From Candidatus Altimarinota bacterium (GTDB taxonomy: Bacteria; Patescibacteriota; Gracilibacteria; JAHISY01): DNA of 33,443 bases. The DNA is taken from positions 1-33,443 of the forward strand of contig JAIPGZ010000010.1 of assembly GCA_021735425.1 (NCBI GenBank). The letters are read 5' to 3'. Below, piece after piece: positions 32,422 to 33,443 of the stretch (position 1 is its first letter; each line of letters begins with the position of its first letter). The notes under the pieces are model-generated. The model was not told the origin of the DNA, made no database searches, and worked only from the letters and a program-made list of their open reading frames with translations. A program made the position numbers and the translations under genes.

Positions 32422-32940
32422 ATGAGAAGCGTCAACAAAGTGATTCTAGTCGGAAATCTCACTCGAGATCCAGAATTGAAAACAACTCAAGGCGGTCAGT
32501 CAATTTGTACCTTCGGAATGGCGACGAACCGACAATGGAAAGATGCCGAAGGGAAACCGCGTGATCTGGCTGAATTCCACGAAATCACCGCTTGGGGCGG
32601 ACGCGGCGATATCTGTCATCAGATTCTGAAAAAAGGTAACCTCGTCTACATCGAAGGCTACATTAAAACGAGAAACTGGCTCGACGAAGAAACGCAAAAG
32701 AAACGCTACCGCACTGAAGTCGTAGTCGACGATGTGATTAAGCTAGAAAAACGACCCCAAGGCGAAATCACCCCCGGCGACAAACCAGTAGTAGAAGTGA
32801 ATGAAGCGGAGGGCGCAGCAGCGACAGAGGCTTTCGGAGCAGAGCCAGAAGAAAAGCCAGAAGAAAAGCCAGAAGAAAAGCCAGAAGAAAAGCCAGAAGA
32901 AAAGCCAGAAGAAAAAGAGGAAATAACTGAAAATTTCTAG
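32422..32940 (+). CDS. ssb: Single-stranded DNA-binding protein
   Basis: 172 aa. The OB-fold covers about 1-112: MRSVNKVILVGNLTRDPELK, then ICTFGMATNR, and GNLVYIEGYIKTRNW. The remainder is an acidic tail with a 12-base unit (CCAGAAGAAAAG) repeated about six times, encoding EEKP. The tip is EEITENF rather than the usual DDDIPF, but keeps acidic residues and a final Phe, which normally recruits partner proteins. It sits between rpsF and rpsR, the standard bacterial arrangement. Confidence 0.96.
   Translation: MRSVNKVILVGNLTRDPELKTTQGGQSICTFGMATNRQWKDAEGKPRDLAEFHEITAWGGRGDICHQILKKGNLVYIEGYIKTRNWLDEETQKKRYRTEVVVDDVIKLEKRPQGEITPGDKPVVEVNEAEGAAATEAFGAEPEEKPEEKPEEKPEEKPEEKPEEKEEITENF
32845..32915 (+). 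repeat. 12-bp tandem repeat in ssb
   Basis: About six copies of CCAGAAGAAAAG in frame, giving EEKP repeats; the last copy is imperfect. Copy number may vary between strains. Confidence 0.8.
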
Positions 32941-33189: not shown

Positions 33190-33282
33190 CCAGTAGTTTG
33201 TAGTTAATAGTTTGTAGATTTTTCTCAACTTATTGCTTGTTAATTACCATCTACCAACTACCTTCTACCTACTAAACAACCC
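33190..33282. repeat. Short AGTTTGTAG / CTACC repeats
   Basis: Tandem words AGTTTGTAG (about 33197-33218) and CTACCAACTACCTTCTACCT (about 33251-33270) fill the gap after rpsR. No gene is seen. They resemble the CAGTT-type tracts in ispE and near 20720. Confidence 0.5.
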
Positions 33283-33387
33283 GCCGCCGTAGCTTACCCT
33301 TCACCCTTCGGGTTACGGGGCACAGGCAGCAAAATAGGAACACCCATGGTAAGGGTGGGGTCACCCCGCCAAGCGGGGTCGGCGGCC
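33283..33387 (+). pseudogene. tRNA-Thr-like element with abnormal D-arm
   Basis: Acceptor GCCGCCG (33283-33289) pairs with CGGCGGC (33380-33386). An anticodon arm CACCC/ATGGTAA/GGGTG carries anticodon GGT (33348-33350), and a GGGTC variable loop follows. The T-arm has stem ACCCC/GGGGT but loop GCCAAGC, not TTCRANY, and can close further into a 7-bp hairpin. The D-arm region is about 49 bases instead of about 17 and lacks the AGTCGGTA loop. It shares GCCGCCGTAGCT and the anticodon arm with the tRNA-Thr 120 bases downstream. Likely a broken or remodelled tRNA copy. Confidence 0.55.
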
Positions 33388-33402
33388 ACTCTCAATAATT
33401 CC

Positions 33403-33443
33403 GCCGCCGTAGCTCAGTCGGTAGAGCACACCCATGGTAAGGG
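33403..33443 (+). tRNA. tRNA-Thr(GGT), cut by window end
   Basis: Acceptor GCCGCCG, D-stem GCTC/GAGC with loop AGTCGGTA, and anticodon loop ATGGTAA with anticodon GGT at 33436-33438. Only the first 41 bases are in the window; the T-arm and 3' end are missing. Confidence 0.85.

Follow-up and report, generated by a model that had tools for sequence, protein, structure and literature searches.

The Rickettsia palindromic elements, and repeats of a similar kind, are short palindromes that can lie inside genes. In T-even phages, the GIY-YIG homing enzyme SegB cuts DNA at tRNA genes and causes tandem amplification of tRNAs (PMC13096335, PMC2988022), and the tRNAOther gene of Bacillus cereus is a tRNA-like gene thought to be inactive in translation (PMC3399842).

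The stretch of DNA analysed here (the window, 33,443 nucleotides of a Candidatus Altimarinota contig) ends in tRNA-related sequence. An initial annotation had reported a 104-nt malformed copy of tRNA-Thr(GGT) with a GCCAAGC loop at 33283–33386, and direct reading of the letters locates it exactly there, as a hairpin-interrupted, full-length pseudo-tRNA-Thr(GGT) (copy 1); this and all the parts listed below lie on the + strand. The acceptor 5′ strand GCCGCCG (33283–33289) and the following TAGCT (33290–33294) form a segment (33283–33294) identical to the genuine tRNA-Thr(GGT); a 32-nt D-loop hairpin (TACCC..GGGGCACAGG, 33295–33326) is then inserted between TAGCT and CAG, and its insertion point and tail are common to many other tRNA copies. 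The anticodon arm CACCC-ATGGTAA-GGGTG (33341–33357) is unchanged, with the anticodon GGT at 33348–33350; the T-arm is replaced by the hairpin ACCCC-GCCAAGC-GGGGT (33363–33379), without T54-T55-C56; and the acceptor 3′ strand CGGCGGC (33380–33386) is followed, in comparison with the genuine gene, by CACT and not by TCCA. The next copy starts 16 nt past copy 1 and is cut by the contig end after its first 41 nt (33403–33443). The region preceding copy 1 (33190–33280), as well as locus L046, contains intergenic runs of short repeats resembling TAGTTTGTAG / CTACCAACTACC, which are found repeatedly before genes of this genus; further upstream, the single-stranded-DNA-binding protein gene ends in tandemly repeated sequence that encodes KPEE units (32842–32930).

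Fold computation indicated a complete cloverleaf for copy 1 (−47.3 kcal/mol), where the T-arm is a 7-bp stem with no T-loop. ARAGORN made no tRNA call on copy 1 in the window, the Rfam tRNA model gave no full-length match over 33283–33386, and with Rfam both the window end and relatives yielded only tRNA and chance-level matches. Compared with a functional tRNA, copy 1 has GCCAAGC in place of the T-loop consensus TTCRANY, and CACT in place of CCA or a standard discriminator; the genuine tRNA-Thr(GGT) has TTCAAAT and TCCA at these points. The combination of clear homology to an intact paralogue and disrupting changes is that of a tRNA pseudogene, which bears out the earlier suggestion of a pseudo-tRNA.

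Extension of the contig, proposed earlier as a check, was achieved by searching the genome to which the window belongs; the search identified contig C21, overlapping the window by 33 nt at its start, as the continuation of the Thr locus. C21 holds an 88-bp repeat (about 2.5 copies, 100% identity), each unit of which combines a normal D-arm with the broken GCCAAGC T-arm; after two such broken units come the genuine tRNA-Thr(GGT) (C21:169–244), the single gene for this tRNA among the 42 tRNA genes of the genome, and then rplU. The array, therefore, opens with copy 1, continues with two or more 88-bp units whose T-arm is broken and closes with the genuine gene; the contig break falls inside the repeat, so the count of at least three broken copies before the working gene is a lower bound. 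The 41 nt at 33403–33443 occur unchanged both in the broken 88-bp unit and in the genuine tRNA, and the window itself therefore fits either; the initial annotation was right about the position of this second copy, but its description as a normal-looking tRNA is doubtful, since the same letters fit the broken units, two of which lie on C21, and, judging by the sequence of the continuation, the copy starting at 33403 is probably another broken one. Chance does not account for the array, whose units repeat with 100% identity and have similar counterparts at many tRNAs, and we regard the window feature with high confidence as a pseudo-tRNA array. It is among the few arrays that keep both acceptor strands. 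The locus search found no GIY-YIG gene at the window Thr locus; such a domain is encoded at other tRNA loci with similar copies.

The order rpsR, tRNA-Thr(GGT), rplU is conserved in four relatives (G001, G003, G004 and G005). The look at relatives proposed in the initial annotation turned up copies in the congener G003, whose own tRNA-Thr(GGT) is accompanied by two malformed copies at the rpsR–rplU locus, but none in G001, G004 and G005, where the genuine tRNA stands there alone, without broken copies. G003 contains two further malformed copies before tRNA-Thr(CGT), and one of these (copy 2) shares with the window copy the D-loop hairpin type and the 17-nt T-arm replacement with the GCCAAGC loop. 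Since three relatives lack the copies and G003 has copies of its own, the copies come and go, following each species' tRNA, and the absence from the three also means that no group-conserved function rests on them.

Hairpin-interrupted partial tRNA copies were found beside about 30 tRNA genes in the window's own genome, where the reading covered the stretches around tRNAs and the search matches, and in G003 (85% complete; the genomes are mostly metagenome assemblies). Their placement was surveyed with the real tRNAs masked, counting copies of each tRNA's own 5′ 12-mer and own 3′ end. The numbers of 5′ copies upstream, 5′ copies downstream, 3′ copies upstream and 3′ copies downstream were 5, 0, 0 and 2 for 41 tRNAs of the window's own genome, 15, 0, 0 and 8 for 33 tRNAs of G003 and 2, 0, 0 and 2 for 33 tRNAs of an unselected set of class-mates, all of these counts resting on short exact-like words that miss old copies; mispaired controls gave 0 copies. 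The polarity is thus strict in 34 of 34 cases, not all of them independent events: 5′ copies lie only upstream and 3′ copies only downstream. For 53 tRNAs at loci picked by the hairpin pattern described below, the same four classes held 36, 1, 0 and 5 copies, with one chance match in the control.

The copies share a common plan. GC-rich hairpins are sited in the D-loop, anticodon arm or T-loop; a hairpin was recognised by eye in all 22 upstream copies, and a strict test demanding 6 perfect bp detected it in 16 of the 22 but in only 7 of the 51 upstream regions that have no copy (p = 1.6e-6). The 3′ acceptor strand is missing in 18 of 22 upstream copies and the 5′ acceptor strand in 13 of 15 downstream copies. 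Several loci have features of their own. At L086, the 5′ and 3′ pieces of one tRNA-Thr (GCCGCCT..AGGCGGC) enclose another, the intact tRNA-Thr(TGT), so that one tRNA is nested in the other, and L089 and L113 have a similar arrangement. Downstream of tRNA-Arg(GCG), Val(GAC), Leu(GAG) and Arg(TCG) (L154, L149, L150, L182 and L135), a conserved stretch of ~150–200 nt (GGTTC..GGTGGTGAGAA..GGCGGC..GAGCCAGCTTC) lies between the intact tRNA and the 3′ copy; no ORF was noticed in it and Rfam gave no match to it, and it might constitute a separate structured RNA element. A spliced split tRNA was considered for the Gly locus of the congener and rejected, the outer copy being without an anticodon arm and an intact tRNA-Gly(GCC) being present elsewhere in the genome.

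Searches with the D-loop hairpin pattern (TAGCTT..ACARGCAGC) extended this picture. A looser form of it gave 20 matches in 353 genomes of the class (7 in the reversed control); of these 20, 19 fall within copied tRNA 5′ ends that directly precede an intact tRNA, and the remaining one (L047) is a chance match. A stricter form found 43 stretches in GTDB genomes, belonging to Patescibacteria, Flavobacteriaceae (where the match is repeatedly at tRNA-Arg(TCT)), Marinimicrobia and others; a tRNA follows within 420 nt downstream in 40 of them, and the other three end at the contig end or the end of the fetched stretch. Only five of these 43 loci have a GIY-YIG gene. The viral contig collection contains no match to the pattern, so that this search revealed no phage source. 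Away from tRNAs, too, hairpins of this family are present, some of them inside coding genes; at L116 and L121, the element sits inside ORFs of conserved genes, apparently in-frame, the L121 gene looking like dapB.

Small ORFs in the tRNA flanks belong to the GIY-YIG family (PF01541). Of 34 stand-alone GIY-YIG ORFs, 24 have a tRNA on the same strand no more than 300 nt away (3 of 3 in the window's own genome, 8 of 12 in G003 and 13 of 19 in five relatives), while the share expected near tRNAs is ~2% per ORF (P about 5e-35). All seven GIY-YIG genes upstream of a tRNA have on their far side a tRNA copy beginning from position 1, and eight of the 17 downstream ones have a far-side copy reaching the tRNA 3′ end (two more have doubtful 11-nt matches and the rest none), the chance level with a shuffled tRNA being about 4 of 24. 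The far-side copies carry one hairpin in one arm. The nuclease gene is thus placed between pieces of its presumed target at these tRNA loci, not at the window locus. At the Asn locus of two species, the order is a hairpin-broken 5′ half of tRNA-Asn, the GIY-YIG gene, whose frame terminates inside tRNA sequence, and the intact tRNA; in the Flavobacteriaceae isolate Mesohalobacter halotolerans (L112), a pseudo-5′ piece, intact tRNA-Arg(TCT), a GIY-YIG gene and a pseudo-3′ piece with hairpins in the anticodon arm and T-loop follow one another. Partial copies are also commoner at tRNAs with a GIY-YIG neighbour in the window's own genome and G003, a modest link (p = 0.03).

On balance, these data incline us to suggest that GIY-YIG homing-type elements at tRNA genes made the window pseudo-tRNAs, a reading drawn from sequence comparison that would follow the phage SegB in part. 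The nuclease would break the tRNA gene; repair would import the nuclease gene together with sequence restoring one intact tRNA, while what remained of the old tRNA, displaced beyond the nuclease gene, would be marked and inactivated by hairpins. Such one-sided restoration of the target after a homing-type insertion predicts the polarity observed. Subsequent loss of the nuclease gene, or local tandem amplification driven by breakage, would leave broken copies alone, as in the window, whose array, having no nuclease gene and keeping both acceptor strands, may represent a late, amplified state of a locus where the nuclease was once present. Simple splitting of a tRNA fails to account for the window copies, because both acceptor strands are kept, and amplification and hairpin insertion have to be added. 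One possible effect of the hairpins is to protect the displaced copy from being cut again; alternatively, as the same family is found away from tRNAs and in coding genes, they may be independent palindromic repeats landing in redundant DNA. The earlier idea of a scar left by an element inserted at a tRNA gene agrees with the hairpin-broken copies of fixed polarity that bracket GIY-YIG genes elsewhere, and the pseudo-tRNA and the element scar would then be one and the same thing.

The alternative that survives best, which we nevertheless consider rather unlikely, is neutral decay: a tRNA duplicated in tandem by slippage, its redundant copy invaded by palindromic repeats, comparable with the Rickettsia palindromic elements, and left to decay, with the nucleases as incidental neighbours. 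The dispersal of same-family hairpins through the genomes, including in-frame positions in coding genes, fits this, as do the full-length tandem form of the window copies and the lack of a nuclease gene at the Thr locus. Random decay, however, would not be expected to give a polarity without exception in 34 cases or the exact loss of the inner acceptor strand in most copies, and GIY-YIG genes are positioned precisely between an intact tRNA and a partial copy.

A functional tRNA-like RNA, whether it acts as a regulator, resembles a Y RNA or serves a FemX-type enzyme as non-proteinogenic tRNA-Thr, appears improbable. Copy 1 and the 88-bp unit do keep a full cloverleaf, and the genome has a FemAB-family gene; but the T-loop and CCA are lost, most copies at other tRNAs are missing one acceptor strand, and three relatives have no copies at the same locus. 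YrlA Y RNA, a match to which overlaps the copy below threshold (21.5 bits against a cut-off of 69), was considered for copy 1 and dropped, no TROVE/Ro protein gene being found in the window's own genome or the congener. The regulator or decoy role proposed in the initial annotation likewise found no positive evidence, and the copies' absence at this locus in G001, G004 and G005 speaks against it. Still less probable are scars of classical integrase-driven islands with tRNA attachment sites: partial copies beside intact tRNAs resemble attachment sites, but here both 5′ and 3′ pieces are present and interrupted by hairpins, the intervals are usually about 50–370 nt, the gene in them encodes a GIY-YIG nuclease, and in the stretches that were read no integrase was noticed. 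An assembly artefact in a repeat, a doubt raised at the outset and suggested by the contig break within the array, is scarcely credible, because similarly built copies are present in an isolate genome and in the interior of long contigs from other genomes.

Beyond the Thr locus, the GIY-YIG homing-type reading can be extended, with somewhat more doubt than trust, to an undescribed and widespread class of GIY-YIG homing elements whose targets would be the tRNA genes of Patescibacteria, Flavobacteriaceae, Marinimicrobia and other bacteria; these elements would insert there, carry a rescue tRNA and leave hairpin-inactivated pieces in onion-like layers, having visited about half of all tRNA genes in some genomes. 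Literature searches did not find the pattern of hairpin-broken tRNA copies described in bacteria. If such a class exists, selfish nucleases would routinely attack an essential and supposedly untouchable class of genes in bacteria with reduced genomes, stand-alone GIY-YIG proteins beside tRNA genes would gain a role, tRNA fragments ignored by annotation would be explained, and the survival of a host whose single-copy tRNA gene is parasitised would become testable. The rule of 5′ copies upstream and 3′ copies downstream is a simple, searchable signature.

The comparison with described systems reveals partial likenesses in each case. The hairpins resemble the Rickettsia palindromic elements in being palindromes inside genes, here apparently in-frame in coding genes, but they are tied strongly to tRNA copies and have fixed insertion points in the D-loop, T-loop and anticodon arm. 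Unlike tRNAOther (PMC3399842), the copies form a tandem array adjoining the parent gene, show defined hairpin replacements and involve many tRNA types. The features shared with SegB are a free-standing GIY-YIG gene among tRNA genes and, in the proposed course of events, DNA breakage there with tandem amplification; the elements differ from SegB in that they are chromosomal and occur in bacteria of several phyla, their predicted proteins have a single domain and roughly 80–110 codons, cleavage is predicted from sequence, and hairpin-interrupted tRNA pieces bracket the gene.
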